A DNA stretch of 60,756 nucleotides from Verrucomicrobiia bacterium (GCA_019634625.1 JAHCBA010000040.1:1-60756); one strand, 5' to 3'; positions 37,030 to 42,554 are shown, counted from the stretch's first letter. Program-made: numbers and translations. The notes: a model not told the origin generated them from the letters alone.

Positions 37030-37419
37030 GGCCTGGGTCTGCTGCCGCCTGAATCCGGAACGAGCCTGCAGACGTGAGGATTCTTGGGCTTACCGGGAGC
37101 TTCGAAATAAAAAGCCAGTCTATTTACAGTTGACGACAACAATATAGAAAGTCAGGCTCATAGTTAGTTGACCATGACGGAGTGACGGAGGGGGCAGCGC
37201 GGGCAGTTGCAGTTTGGGGTTCGGGGGGGGCGAGGGGGGCGGCAACGTCATGATGCCTGGTTTTGCTGAGTGGCTTTGCTGAGGGACGTTGAGCATGAGG
37301 ACGCGCACAGGGGGGGATGATTAATATTGTATTGAGTGATGGATGGAATCAGTGGTTCTTAATTCTTTGGGCGGTGCAAAAACAAACGATTGACGGTCAG
37401 GCGGGGAAGGGTACTCTGT
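37030..37419. other. AT-rich divergent intergenic region
   Basis: No coding frame is supported. Base composition drops sharply around 37100-37160 and 37320-37385, suggesting promoters for the divergent genes. A weak -35/-10 pair (TTGACG at 37390, TACTCT at 37412, spacer 16 bp) precedes the structured leader described next. Confidence 0.35.
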
Positions 37420-37604
37420 GCGCGTTGTTTGCGAGTGCTCTTTGGACAAGCGGTAAAAAATGGCTGAGACAGTGACGTAATACAGATTTCCGGAGTTGTG
37501 CGGGTGCACACGATTCCGGCATCCCCATCAGCCTACTTGCACCTTGGATTCGACATTCCCCGGGCCCCGGCGGTCTCCCTCAGACTGCGGGGCCCGGTTT
37601 TTTT
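37420..37604 (+). ncRNA. Candidate structured leader RNA or small RNA ending in a terminator
   Basis: About 185 nt with no reading frame of its own end in a strong terminator. The region includes a hairpin at 37490-37519 (CCGGA/TCCGG outer stem, TGTGC/GCACA inner stem). A weak promoter match precedes it. The coupled ATP-grasp/alr/transferase operon begins 138 bp after it on the same strand, so it could be a riboswitch or attenuator, or an independent sRNA. It does not match T-box, TPP, cobalamin or 6S consensus features that I can recall. Confidence 0.35.
37560..37604 (+). terminator. Strong Rho-independent terminator with no upstream gene
   Basis: A 9-bp GC stem (37560-37568 with 37589-37597) continues into a 7-bp inner stem (37570-37576 with 37582-37588, one G-U), then seven T. 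The nearest upstream gene is on the other strand, so the terminated transcript must be a leader or small RNA. Confidence 0.9.
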
Positions 37605-37742: not shown

Positions 37743-39014
37743 ATGGAAGTGGCTGTGCCGACGCCGATTCGGGCTTGGGTCATGGGCATCGGGGCCTTCA
37801 CCCAGGGCCTGCTGCGTTGCCTGCGGGAGGACGGAGCGGAGGTGGCTGCGTACCTGACGCGGGACTATGGGCATTGGGGACCGCGCCAGGAGGGGAGGAC
37901 GTGGTCGATCGACGAGGTGGCAAACCCGTGCGACCTGGTGCGGCGGGAGCGTCCGAACCTGATTGTGCCGATGTCGATCGAATGGGCATTGCGGTCGTGG
38001 ACGGAGGAGTTTCTGGCTTTGGGTCCGGCGCTATTGTGTCCGACGGGTGAGGGGTTGCGATTGGAGCGGGAGCGGGATTATGCGCGTCGGCTATGCGAGG
38101 AGGCTGGGATTCCCTTTGCGAGGGCGGTCCGGGTGGGGTCACGTGGGGAGGCGGAGGTTCTGGTGCGGCGGGAGCAACGGCCGTATGTGATCAAGAATCC
38201 GCTGTGTTCGCCGACCAGCCCGATCCACACGGTGGTCTGCGACACCTGGGAGGACACGCTGGCGTGGTTGGGGCGGATGGACGACAGCGAGGGGATTTTC
38301 TTGCAGGAGAACCTGGGTCGTCGCGAGGCGGGGCACATTGCGCTGGTCAGCGATGGGGAGATCCACTCGCTGGTGACGAACCAGGAGTACAAGCGGGCGT
38401 TCGATGGGAATCTGGGAATGGTGGCGGGGGCGCCTCTGGGGGGCCTGGTGGAAAGGGATCCGGAAGATCGCCATGGATTGGCGCGGCAGCTGTTGCATCC
38501 GCTGCTTCCCTGGTTTCGCGAGGTGAAGTATCGCGGGCCCGTCCAGGTGACCGCGATTCTGCATGACGACCGCTGGCACGTGATTGAGTACAACGTGCGG
38601 CTTGGGGTGACGTGCGGCCCGTTGATCGGGCGGATGCTGGCGAATCCCGTGGAGACATTTTGGAGGTGTGCGAAGGGATTTGGGTTGGCGCCGCGGTGGC
38701 GGCCGGAGGCGCGATTCGGGTGCAGTCTGACGCTGGCTGGGTACGGGTATCCCTTCACGCAATTGGCCGGGCCGCGGGTGCCCGTCGTGACCGAGGGAGC
38801 GCCCACATGCGACGTGTGGTGGCAGGAGGTGGCGGGGCGCGAGGATGGGGGGCTGGAGGCGACGGGTCATCGTCTTGCCGATGTGGCGGCCGTGGCGGGG
38901 ACCCTGGGGGAGGCGATCGATTGTGTGTACGAGAACATCCGGAGGATCCGTTCGATGGGGAGCTATTACCGGACGGACATTGGGCGGTCGCTGTGGCCGC
39001 CGGGCCATCCATGA
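37743..39014 (+). CDS. PurD-like ATP-grasp ligase
   Basis: The 423-aa protein has the layout of an ATP-grasp enzyme related to phosphoribosylamine-glycine ligase (PurD). It has an N-terminal Rossmann-like part (IRAWVMGIGAFTQGLLRCLR), a nucleotide-binding lysine region (RPYVIKNPLCSPTSP), the strand GIFLQENLGRREAGHIALV, the PurD-like NQEYKRAFDGNLGMVAGAP and the metal-binding HVIEYNVRLGVTCGPL. PurD itself has 'EFNARFGDPE' there, so the acceptor side differs. ATP-grasp enzymes join a carboxylate to an amine via an acyl phosphate; the substrates here are unknown. It is first in a three-gene operon and its stop overlaps the alr start. Unlikely to be the purine enzyme, given its divergence and context. 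Confidence 0.8.
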   Translation: MEVAVPTPIRAWVMGIGAFTQGLLRCLREDGAEVAAYLTRDYGHWGPRQEGRTWSIDEVANPCDLVRRERPNLIVPMSIEWALRSWTEEFLALGPALLCPTGEGLRLERERDYARRLCEEAGIPFARAVRVGSRGEAEVLVRREQRPYVIKNPLCSPTSPIHTVVCDTWEDTLAWLGRMDDSEGIFLQENLGRREAGHIALVSDGEIHSLVTNQEYKRAFDGNLGMVAGAPLGGLVERDPEDRHGLARQLLHPLLPWFREVKYRGPVQVTAILHDDRWHVIEYNVRLGVTCGPLIGRMLANPVETFWRCAKGFGLAPRWRPEARFGCSLTLAGYGYPFTQLAGPRVPVVTEGAPTCDVWWQEVAGREDGGLEATGHRLADVAAVAGTLGEAIDCVYENIRRIRSMGSYYRTDIGRSLWPPGHP

Positions 39015-40201
39015 GCCAGGACATTGTCGCCGCGTGCAGGGAGGCGTCCGGGAAGGAGTTCCCGAAACCGGGATTGAGAAGGGTTTCGGCGTGGGTGGAG
39101 GTGGACCTGGCGGGGTTGGGGCGGAACGTGGCGTTGATTCGGGCCGATCTGCCGGCGGCGGTGGGTCTCATGTATGTGGCGAAGGACGACGCTTATGGAC
39201 TGGGGGCGGTGCCGGCGGTACGCACGGTGCTGGGGGCGGGGGGGGATTCGGTGGCGGTGGTCACTCTGGACGAGGCGGCGGAATTGCGGGCTGCGGGCAT
39301 TCGGGCGCCCATCCTATTGATGGGGGAGCGGCTGGAGGAGGAATGGCCCGACGTGCTGGAACTCGATCTGGAACCGGCGATCGGGTCGGTGGCGGCGGCC
39401 GAGGCGTTGAACCGACTGGCCACGCGCATGGGGCGGCGGGTGGCGGTTCATCTGAAGATCAACACGGGGATGAACCGGTTCGGGTTTCCATGGCGCGAGG
39501 TGGAGCAGTGGAGTGTGCGGCTGGCGAGGCTGGACCGGTTGGAGGTTGCGGGGGTGTTCGGGCATTTCGCGCAGAGCGACGAGCCGGACAAGACCTATGC
39601 GCGGACGCAGTCGGGGCGATTTGAGGGCTGCCTGGATCGGTTGCGGGAGGCTGGGATTTCTCCGTGCCGGCGGCATCACGCCAATTCGGGTGGGGCGCTG
39701 GAGTTGCCCGAATCGCATTTTGACCTGGTCCGGGTGGGGATTCTGGCGCACGGGGTTTATCCGTCCGCCTCGTGTCGGCGGGTGGCGGGTTTGGAACCGG
39801 TGATGACGGTGAAGGCGCGGGTGGTGGCGGAGCAGCCGGTGGATCCGGGCGACAGCGTCGGGTATGGCATGCGATGGACGGCGACGCGGCGGAGCCGGAT
39901 CGGGGTCATGCCGGTGGGGTATGGGGATGGGTATCCGCGGTTGCGGAACGAGGGGCGGGTGTTGATTCGGGGTCGGTATGTGCCGGTGGTTGGGGGGGTG
40001 ACGATGGATGCGCTGATGGTGGATCTGACGGAGGTGCCGGAGGCGGGGGTGGGGGATGAGGGGGTGCTGATGGGGCGACAGGGCGGGATGGAGATCACGC
40101 CGTATGAGTTGGCGCGGTTGAAGCGGAGTGTGCCGTACGAGATCCTGCTGGGTTGGCGGCATCGGCTGCCGCGGGTGTATCTGGAGGGGGGGGGTGCATG
40201 A
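39011..40201 (+). CDS. alr: Alanine racemase
   Basis: PLP-dependent interconversion of L- and D-alanine. The 396-aa protein keeps the Schiff-base lysine Lys58 (MYVAKDDAYGLGA), the catalytic tyrosine Tyr285 (SVGYGMRWTA), substrate-side segments INTGMNRFGFPW and HHANSGGALELP, and the GVTMDALMVDLTEVP strand (usual MDQ is MDA here). There is an N-terminal extension of about 25 residues before the barrel. ATG 39011 overlaps the ATP-grasp stop, and the stop overlaps the next start. Whether it is the housekeeping racemase or a dedicated copy for this operon cannot be told from this window; the tight coupling argues for the latter. Confidence 0.9.
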   Translation: MSQDIVAACREASGKEFPKPGLRRVSAWVEVDLAGLGRNVALIRADLPAAVGLMYVAKDDAYGLGAVPAVRTVLGAGGDSVAVVTLDEAAELRAAGIRAPILLMGERLEEEWPDVLELDLEPAIGSVAAAEALNRLATRMGRRVAVHLKINTGMNRFGFPWREVEQWSVRLARLDRLEVAGVFGHFAQSDEPDKTYARTQSGRFEGCLDRLREAGISPCRRHHANSGGALELPESHFDLVRVGILAHGVYPSASCRRVAGLEPVMTVKARVVAEQPVDPGDSVGYGMRWTATRRSRIGVMPVGYGDGYPRLRNEGRVLIRGRYVPVVGGVTMDALMVDLTEVPEAGVGDEGVLMGRQGGMEITPYELARLKRSVPYEILLGWRHRLPRVYLEGGGA

Positions 40202-41037
40202 AGGTGTTGTGTTCCGAGGTGGGGCACGACTATGGGCACTACCTGTACCCGTATGTGCTGTGGGGCTATCTGGAGCCGGGCGAGACGCCGGCGGACGCAT
40301 TGGCGTCGGGATTCATGCCGGGGACACCGGAGATGGACCGGTGGTACATGGTGCGCCAGATCCGGGTGGGATTGGAGGGATGGGCTCCCAGTTCCGAGAA
40401 CCGGCGGGTGTTGCGTCGGACCGAGGGTTGGCGATGCGAGTTGGTGGAGAAGGGGGCCTTTGGGGACACGGCGGAGCGACGGGCCGGATGGCTGGAATAT
40501 GCCGCCGGGAAATGGGGTGTGGGGATCATGACGCCGGAGCGGTTGGACCGGCTCATGGGGGGGCCGGTGGTGAGTCATCTATTTCATTGCACCGAGGGGG
40601 GGACCGGGGAGGAGGTGGGGAGTGCTCTGGTGTACTGCGAACCGCCGAGGGCGGCGTTTTATTACTATGCCTTTTACCGGCGAACCCCGGAAACCAAGCA
40701 CTACGGGATGGGGATGATGGCGCGGGCGGTCGCGCAGTTTGCGGCGGCGGGATACGAGCACCTGTACCTGGGGACCTGCTATTCGGAGCGGGCGTTGTAC
40801 AAGGCGCAGTTCGAGCCGCTCGAGTTTTGGAACGGGTGCCGGTGGTCCGGCAACGGGCGGGAATTGAGGCACTTGGTACGGCAGGGGCTTCCGGAGGGCC
40901 GGCACCGGCTGGAGACCGCGGAGTTCCGGGATTTCCAACCGGGGCCGCTGGCGGAACTGGCGCGGGAGTCCTGCGTCCGAATTGATCCGGCGATCAGGCC
41001 TCGACCGACTCGCCCGGGGCGGGGTCCAGCACCTTGA
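40198..41037 (+). CDS. Arginyl-tRNA-protein transferase-like (Ate/Bpt-like) GNAT-fold protein
   Basis: A 279-aa protein whose C-terminal half (about residues 140-225) resembles the acyltransferase domain of Ate1/Bpt: ALVYCEPPRAAFYYYAFYRR, YGMGMMARAVAQFAAAGYEH, LYLGTCYSERALYKAQFEP and LEFWNGCRW parallel the family's 'YLYLGYWI..C.KMxYKAxFxPxE...W'. Upstream, GWAPSSENRRVLRR parallels the 'F.pS..qRRvlRR' stretch. The N-terminal Cys cluster of true Ate1 is absent. Such enzymes move an amino acid from a charged tRNA to an acceptor amine. Coupled (ATGA) to alr. Its end overlaps the 3' end of the convergent MBL gene by 44 bp. Function is inferred and could be a simple N-acyltransferase instead. Confidence 0.65.
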   Translation: MKVLCSEVGHDYGHYLYPYVLWGYLEPGETPADALASGFMPGTPEMDRWYMVRQIRVGLEGWAPSSENRRVLRRTEGWRCELVEKGAFGDTAERRAGWLEYAAGKWGVGIMTPERLDRLMGGPVVSHLFHCTEGGTGEEVGSALVYCEPPRAAFYYYAFYRRTPETKHYGMGMMARAVAQFAAAGYEHLYLGTCYSERALYKAQFEPLEFWNGCRWSGNGRELRHLVRQGLPEGRHRLETAEFRDFQPGPLAELARESCVRIDPAIRPRPTRPGRGPAP

Positions 41038-42370
41038 TTCGGGGATGGCGCCGGGCCAGGGCGTCCTTGAACCAGGCCCGGGCGTCGTCTTCGCCGTGGC
41101 CGACAATGACCACGCGGGGGGAGACGGTGCCGACGAAGTCGAGGAGTTCGTCGCGGTTGGCGTGGGCGGTGAGGTCGAATTCCCGGACTTCGCAACGCCG
41201 GGTGACGTCGCGGTCCTGGGGTCCGAGGTTGAGGGTGTCGCCGTGGGCGCTGGCGCGGAGGATGCCGGCGGGGGTGGCGGGATCGGCGTAGCCGACGAAG
41301 AAGATCCCGTGGCGTTCGTCGTCGAGCATGCGGAGGGCGAGTTCGTGGGCGGCGGTATTGGGGTTGAGCATGCCGGAAGTCAGGACGAAGAGGCGCCCTC
41401 CGCCGAGTTTCATGGACTCCCACTGGCGGCGGCCGAGGACCTGGAGGTCGAGGGCCTCGGTGAGGGCGAGGTTGCTGTGATGGCGGTGGGTGCGGTGGGC
41501 CTGGAGATCGTAGATTTCGGTGAAGACCCGGCCGAGGCCACCGATATAGACTGGCTGTCGGGGGAGGCGGCCGGAGTCCATGAGGAGGGCGATCAGGGCG
41601 AGGATTTCCTGGGAGCGGCCCAGGGCGAAGACGGGTATCAGGACCGAGCCATTGCGTTCCTGGACGGCGCGGATGGCCTGGGCGAGCGCCTCGATTTCCG
41701 CCGCGCGGCTGAAGTCCGGCGGGACTTCGCGTCCGCCGCGGGTGGTTTCGAGGATGAGCACATCGGCTTTGGCATCTTCGAAGCGGGCACCTTTGAGGAG
41801 GGTTTGGTCCTGGAAGGACACGTCCCCGGAATAGAAGAGGGTTTGGTGGGCTCCACGGACCATGACGCCGGCCGAGCCGAGAGCATGGCCGGCGTCGAGG
41901 AATTCGAGGGTTGGGGATTGGAGGGCGCGGCGGGTGCGGGTGGGGCCCGCCCAGTCAATTTCGCGATTGTAGCGGAATCCCTGAAAGACGGCTTCGAACT
42001 CGTCCACCTCATCGTGGGTGAAGAGGGGGTAGTCCTTGACGCCGAGTTCGTCGCGCTGGCGGAGCATGACATTGACCGAATTGTGGAGAACGCGGCTGAC
42101 GATGAAGTAGCTCAGTTCGGTCATGAGCACGTGGGCCTTGGGGAAGCGCCGCATGGCGACGGGGAGCGAGCCGACGTGATCGTGGTGACAATGGCTGATG
42201 GCGATGGCGTCGAGGTCGTCGCCATCGATCTGGTCGTAAAGGGGGAGGGCGAGGCGACCTTCGCGTTTGGGGTGGAGGCCGGCGTCGAGGAGGAGGCGGT
42301 GATCCTCGAGTTCCACCAGCCAGGCGGATGCGCCGATATCGCTGGCGGGATTGAGGTTGGTGATCCGCAT
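40994..42370 (-). CDS. MBL-fold RNA-processing exonuclease-like protein (beta-CASP)
   Basis: A 458-aa metallo-beta-lactamase-fold hydrolase. Metal ligands are in AISHCHHDHVGSLP (His60, His62, Asp64, His65), the later His/Asp in DAGHALGSAGVMV and FYSGDVSFQD, and the C-terminal His in VVIVGHGEDDARAW. Between them a beta-CASP-like insertion includes SVLIPVFALGRSQEILALI and LFVLTSGMLNPNTAA. This layout matches the CPSF73-like/RNase group that cuts RNA. I start at the Met of MRITNLNPASDIG (42370); an upstream Met at 42406 is in frame. Convergent and overlapping with the Ate-like gene. Confidence 0.85.
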   Translation of the reverse strand: MRITNLNPASDIGASAWLVELEDHRLLLDAGLHPKREGRLALPLYDQIDGDDLDAIAISHCHHDHVGSLPVAMRRFPKAHVLMTELSYFIVSRVLHNSVNVMLRQRDELGVKDYPLFTHDEVDEFEAVFQGFRYNREIDWAGPTRTRRALQSPTLEFLDAGHALGSAGVMVRGAHQTLFYSGDVSFQDQTLLKGARFEDAKADVLILETTRGGREVPPDFSRAAEIEALAQAIRAVQERNGSVLIPVFALGRSQEILALIALLMDSGRLPRQPVYIGGLGRVFTEIYDLQAHRTHRHHSNLALTEALDLQVLGRRQWESMKLGGGRLFVLTSGMLNPNTAAHELALRMLDDERHGIFFVGYADPATPAGILRASAHGDTLNLGPQDRDVTRRCEVREFDLTAHANRDELLDFVGTVSPRVVIVGHGEDDARAWFKDALARRHPRIKVLDPAPGESVEA

Positions 42371-42554
42371 GGGGTGGATCCTCACCGGGTGGCGGTACGA
42401 GCCCAACTTTTTTTCGATGTCCTTTGAACGTCTTTCAATCGTAGGCGTCGAAGTTTTCGGAGTTGTTTGGGTTCGCCCGCGGGGCGGGATTCGCTGCCCG
42501 TCCCGCGGGTTTCACACCGCAAAGTCCGCTAGGTGTTGTTGTTTGGGTTGTTGA

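Follow-up and report, generated by a model that had tools for sequence, protein, structure and literature searches.

We analyzed a 60,756-nucleotide stretch of DNA from a Verrucomicrobiia bacterium (GCA_019634625.1 JAHCBA010000040.1:1-60756), referred to here in its entirety as the window, with coordinates counted from its first letter. On its + strand lie three genes that an earlier reading made from the DNA alone (the sequence-only reading) had described as an ATGA-coupled set encoding a PurD-like ATP-grasp enzyme, an alanine racemase and an ATE-like protein. The open reading frames (ORFs) and both overlaps are as described: a PurD-like ATP-grasp ligase of a family distinct from purD (37743..39014, 423 aa), an alanine-racemase-family enzyme of a triad-specific clade, alr (39011..40201, 396 aa), and an ATE1/Bpt-like predicted aminoacyl-tRNA-dependent transferase lacking the N-terminal cysteine motif (40198..41037, 279 aa), hereafter ATE-like. 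Read directly from the sequence, ATGA stop/start overlaps join the ligase to alr at 39011..39014 and alr to the ATE-like gene at 40198..40201. Together, these genes are termed the triad.

The triad recurs well beyond the window. In a sample of 320 genomes from the window's order (within Verrucomicrobiota, with relatives labeled Limisphaerales, Pedosphaera or subdivision 3), the ligase was found in 131 and the ATE-like gene in 142; 116 genomes carry both, 15 the ligase only, 26 the ATE-like gene only and 163 neither (Fisher p ~1e-43, with kinship left uncorrected). The two are same-strand neighbors, ligase first, in 77 of the 320, with a median gap of 1271 bases, which is the size of alr. Within a close comparison set of 58 relatives of the same order, ligase orthologues occur in 18 (48-73% identity, E <1e-100), and 20 have ATE-like orthologues. 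Scanning GTDB contigs yielded 197 relatives, and locus order was counted in the best 80 of these, nearly all named Verrucomicrobiota and a few only 'bacterium'. Ligase, alr and ATE-like share the same order and strand in 42/80 loci, one locus has the permuted order alr-ATE-like-ligase, six have alr-ATE-like, and 31 have the ATE-like gene alone. Co-occurrence of the three families in this order, which the sequence-only reading had asked of other genomes, is therefore conserved. Moreover, where 28 genomes with an unlinked ATE-like gene were checked, 15 carry the ligase elsewhere, always directly beside a triad-type alr, and when pairwise protein distances are compared between the three families, r is 0.81-0.89, against at most 0.26 in permutations. 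The recurrence is not chance: the same order is found in dozens of distant loci that share no other flanking genes.

When all ORFs around the loci were clustered, only the ligase, alr and the ATE-like gene were widely shared, and no fourth pathway gene is conserved in the flanks of triad loci. RecG, Dus, an ABC exporter, ROK, ArgS and DUF1549/1553 were considered as pathway partners and rejected, each being confined to a few loci; we do not read the presence of ArgS near four loci as pointing to an Arg donor. In three loci (L145, L165, L179) additional genes separate ligase from alr; these have no Pfam match, and neither has a ~940-aa gene next to certain unlinked ATE-like genes, which shows shared synteny only. 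Other unlinked ATE-like genes (L150, L155, L123, L132) adjoin DUF1559/N-methylation pseudopilin-like genes, possibly by chance, as these are abundant in the phylum. Some lake metagenome-assembled genomes among the 80 best loci are called Akkermansia, a doubtful label; the lake metagenome records titled Akkermansia muciniphila (L118, L127, L129 and others) carry genes of the window's order and are probably misnamed.

In the phylum at large, close ATE-like orthologues were detected in only 5/388 sampled genomes, and the triad is therefore centered on one order. Three of the four other genomes of the window's own genus have a more distant ATE-like gene (~50% identity) and one has none, and the closest triad among the 58 relatives belongs to another family (ligase 73%, ATE-like 62%). 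These data suggest that the three genes of the window were acquired together, as one unit. A search of plasmids for the ligase or the ATE-like gene gave no match.

The racemase is an Alr, scoring 320 bits against TIGR00492 (cut-off 168). The catalytic pair Lys58 and Tyr285, noted as intact from the DNA alone, is invariant in 66 triad Alrs, as are the equivalents of Arg136, His166, Arg219 and Met312 and the pyridoxal phosphate contacts (66/66). Triad Alrs nevertheless form a clade of their own: a branch supported at 100/100 splits 17 of them from 14 stand-alone Alrs of the same order, and the signature substitutions S284G, A59D and Q334A set triad Alrs apart from such stand-alone enzymes. They also differ at the position equivalent to Tyr354, which governs substrate selection in Alr and whose loss widens specificity (PMC4517790). 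The Tyr354-type gate is lost in 66/66 triad Alrs (Leu in 30, Ala in 10, Ser in 6, others in the remainder), whereas 11/14 stand-alone Alrs retain Tyr; the gate is typical of alanine-specific bacterial Alr rather than defining, since some true Alrs carry Gln or His. The product of the racemase is thus likely, but not certainly, D-Ala, and judging from its residues the enzyme may also act on other small amino acids. A second alr, for which the sequence-only reading had proposed looking elsewhere in the genome, did not emerge: no other TIGR00492 racemase was found and the triad alr is the only strong Alr, but its two partner genes do not vary freely. In 16/18 triad genomes the triad Alr is likewise the sole TIGR00492 racemase over cut-off, and two genomes (G019 and G043) carry both kinds. 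Around 20 of the 58 relatives, nearly complete genomes included, have no TIGR00492 racemase over cut-off, yet all have a Ddl-family match.

The ligase retains the whole PurD fold. Its GARS_A and GARS_C domains score 33.4 and 36.0 bits, both above the Pfam cut-offs, and its predicted model (predicted local distance difference test, pLDDT, 88.2) aligns over ~400 residues with PurD structures (Z 32-38), best of all with the Aquifex enzyme 2yw2 (Z 38.2, 398 residues, ~21% identity). The ATP-grasp residues E108, K151, E195, K217, E282 and N284 are invariant in 39 ligase sequences, with Lys103 and Glu185 of PurD replaced by Arg111 and Gln188. PurD holds glycine via Asp212, Arg287 and Glu292 (PMC8880213). 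Counted along the alignment with 2yw2, Asp212 becomes an invariant Glu215, Arg287 corresponds to an invariant Arg286, and Glu292 becomes Ser/Cys291 (Ser in 37/39), so that two of three glycine contacts are altered and the carboxylate-binding Arg is kept. On the phosphoribosylamine side, the PurD segments NTGGMG, GDPE and GPDNPL are replaced. The kept Arg and ATP site, together with the changed contacts and motifs, indicate that carboxylate activation is still possible there and that amino-group recognition and the acceptor side differ. One might speculate that Glu to Ser frees space beside the glycine site, which would suit D-Ala. We also considered the ligase as a substitute for Ddl and rejected it: Ddl is over cut-off in 57/58 relatives, triad and non-triad alike, and all 58 have a Ddl-family match. 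Because Ddl and a canonical purD (C2:135025, 471 bits) are both present, the ligase replaces neither.

The third protein resembles ATE1 in fold far more than in sequence. It scores 15.6 bits against PF04377 (cut-off 25, which a few relatives just pass) and 26.3 against 267 bits for the NCBIfam arginyltransferase, with a similarly weak resemblance to NF002343 (E 4e-6). A profile of the family gave no match to PDB sequences, so that the assignment rests on folds together with these weak matches. Its AlphaFold model, built with 64 sequences (pLDDT 92.6), is best matched by human ATE1 (8tzv; Z 17.1 over 255 residues, model residues 1-276, root-mean-square deviation 3.9), followed by MprF, FemX and the streptothricin synthases Sba18/Sbb17 (Z ~12-16), with FemX aligning to residues 30-214 at Z ~13. 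Acetyl-CoA GNATs rank after these aminoacyl-tRNA-dependent folds (Z 12.4 or less). An ordinary GNAT acetyltransferase was therefore rejected for the product of the gene starting at 40198, and the ATE resemblance claimed in the sequence-only reading stands. Like the arginyl- and leucyl-tRNA-protein transferases ATE1/Bpt (8tzv, 7wg1), the protein has the full-length fold, a YK..F motif and a basic helix. In ATE1, the basic helix of the GNAT domain binds the tRNA acceptor stem (PMC10115844); the corresponding SSENRRxLRK helix has N68, R69, R70 and R73 invariant, and together with the fold this predicts that the enzyme uses charged tRNA. Unlike ATE1/Bpt, it comprises only 279 aa, shares 14% identity, sits in an operon with a ligase and a racemase, and comes from a family whose alignment conserves no cysteine pair toward the N terminus and whose 64 members give no ATE_N hit. 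With FemX/MurM and Sba18/Sbb17 (9wqy, 9wqx) it would share aminoacyl-tRNA-dependent, GNAT-fold amide formation on non-protein amines, although it is nearer to ATE1 than to FemABX proteins. FemX depends on Lys305, according to a review of aminoacyl-tRNA-dependent synthases (PMC12945691), and an invariant K202 would be placed like it, judging from the aligned range (model 214 ~ chain 317) if the end of that range is ungapped.

Two further groups of such proteins were observed. A second ATE-like subfamily (~27% identity, FDKKRRYHQR motif) occurs in another family of the class (L233, L234 and L235, in genomes G176, G191 and G215); its members are nearly full length and adjoin no ligase or alr. A third group of ATE_C-like proteins (MDxLWxxGWRHFGPxF; L248, L250, L251), likewise from relatives, also lacks the N-terminal cysteine motif.

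We suggest, with confidence a little short of even, that the triad is a self-contained three-enzyme amide-forming module that makes aminoacyl-D-Ala-NH-R non-ribosomally and without a nonribosomal peptide synthetase. The racemase would make the D-amino acid, most likely D-Ala. The ligase would then use ATP to turn its carboxylate into an acyl-phosphate, just as PurD activates glycine, and join the activated D-amino acid to an amine other than phosphoribosylamine. Finally, the ATE1-like enzyme would cap the free α-amine with an L-amino acid taken from aminoacyl-tRNA, yielding aminoacyl-D-Ala-NH-R. The occurrence of separate ligase-alr pairs suggests that ligase and alr act together, and that the ATE-like enzyme takes either their product or some other substrate. 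The D-alanine conjugate envisaged by the sequence-only reading fits these data, but the substrates of ligase and transferase are those we infer, and loss of the Tyr354 gate permits other small amino acids.

Several points weigh against the proposed module. What is observed is which genes are present, how they are linked, their families and folds, and their conserved residues; the order of steps, the D-amino acid, the tRNA donor, the acceptor amine and the product are deductions, and the lost gate leaves the racemase's amino acid uncertain. Of the 28 checked genomes with an unlinked ATE-like gene, 12 have neither the ligase nor any Alr, and nine of the 15 genomes with the ligase but no ATE-like gene come from a single family (f2). 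Ligase-only and ATE-like-only genomes mean that the three genes need not act in one linear path. As sole racemase in 16/18 triad genomes, the triad Alr may also serve peptidoglycan. The equivalence of K202 with FemX Lys305 derives from range offsets rather than residue-by-residue superposition.

An unlikely alternative, though the one that survives best, is cell-envelope modification, in which the ligase and the ATE-like enzyme would put D-Ala and an aminoacyl group on an amine of a peptidoglycan precursor, lipid or polysaccharide, much as FemX or MprF do. MprF and FemX are indeed the next-best structural matches, and in most cases the triad alr clade takes the place of the stand-alone Alr supplying peptidoglycan. 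Against this, the flanks of the triad have no conserved envelope, lipid or Mur gene, the Ddl-family match extends to every one of the 58 relatives, and inspection of the three proteins by eye revealed no signal or membrane segments. We doubt more strongly that alr is solely a housekeeping racemase and that the ligase and ATE-like genes, unrelated to it, simply ride along in an operon that is mobile or conserved. The sole-racemase status of triad alr in most triad genomes would fit this, as would the separability of ligase-alr from ATE-like; however, ligase and triad-type alr stay together in all 15 unlinked cases with the ATE-like gene elsewhere, the three genes remain together even in permuted order (L143), and the triad Alr, which lacks the gate, forms a clade of its own and is found alongside a stand-alone Alr in G019 and G043. 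It is improbable, too, that the ATE-like protein is an ordinary N-degron aminoacyl-transferase that tags protein N-termini while the ligase-alr pair does something else. ATE1 is its best full-length structural match and it stands alone in some genomes, but the canonical N-terminal cysteine motif is not conserved in the 64 members, the window's protein misses the ATE_C cut-off and, by a wide margin, all of the arginyltransferase equivalog cut-offs, and its co-occurrence with the ligase is strong. That the ligase is a second glycinamide ribonucleotide synthetase, a true PurD, was rejected as very improbable: despite its PurD fold and GARS_A and GARS_C scores, it reaches 82 of the 288 bits of the TIGR00877 purD equivalog cut-off, has NTGGMG and GDPE replaced, and coexists with the real purD.

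Within the window, the triad is an isolated directional unit, with flanking genes on the opposite strand on both sides. To its left lie sialate-O-acetylesterase-like, accA and phosphomannose isomerase genes; to its right, a β-CASP metallo-hydrolase gene (40994-42406), which convergently overlaps the 3' end of the ATE-like gene, is followed by an MlaD/ABC/MlaE set. Upstream on the + strand, a perfect 10-bp GC-rich inverted repeat at 37560-37604 (CCGGGCCCCG...CGGGGCCCGG) is followed by seven T and lies where an AT-richer stretch (37080-37560) ends; in that stretch we found no clear gene and no Rfam match. The repeat and T run look like the terminator of a short transcript upstream of the triad.

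In the open literature, to which our search was largely confined as it covered few subscription papers, we found no published pathway that combines a racemase, a PurD-like ligase and an ATE1-like transferase, in agreement with the sequence-only reading. A word search of the synthase review likewise returned no arginyl-type enzyme, ATP-grasp or racemase (PMC12945691). Aminoacyl-tRNA-dependent amide formation is itself already known, and the triad would be a variant of it. More broadly, and tentatively, the triad may represent a pathway retained by many Verrucomicrobiota, where an ATE1-family enzyme, no longer engaged in protein tagging, works with a dedicated racemase and an amide ligase descended from PurD to build a non-ribosomal conjugate containing a D-amino acid. 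If so, an ATE1-type enzyme would join the aminoacyl-tRNA-dependent assembly of small molecules, so far the province of FemX-like GNATs, cyclodipeptide synthases, LanB-like and aminoacyl-tRNA synthetase-like enzymes, and PurD would have been repurposed as an amide ligase. The triad would also offer three small, soluble genes open to immediate expression and assay. Since ~40% of the genomes sampled from this large and mostly uncultured order have the ligase, the product of the triad is probably generally useful to these bacteria.
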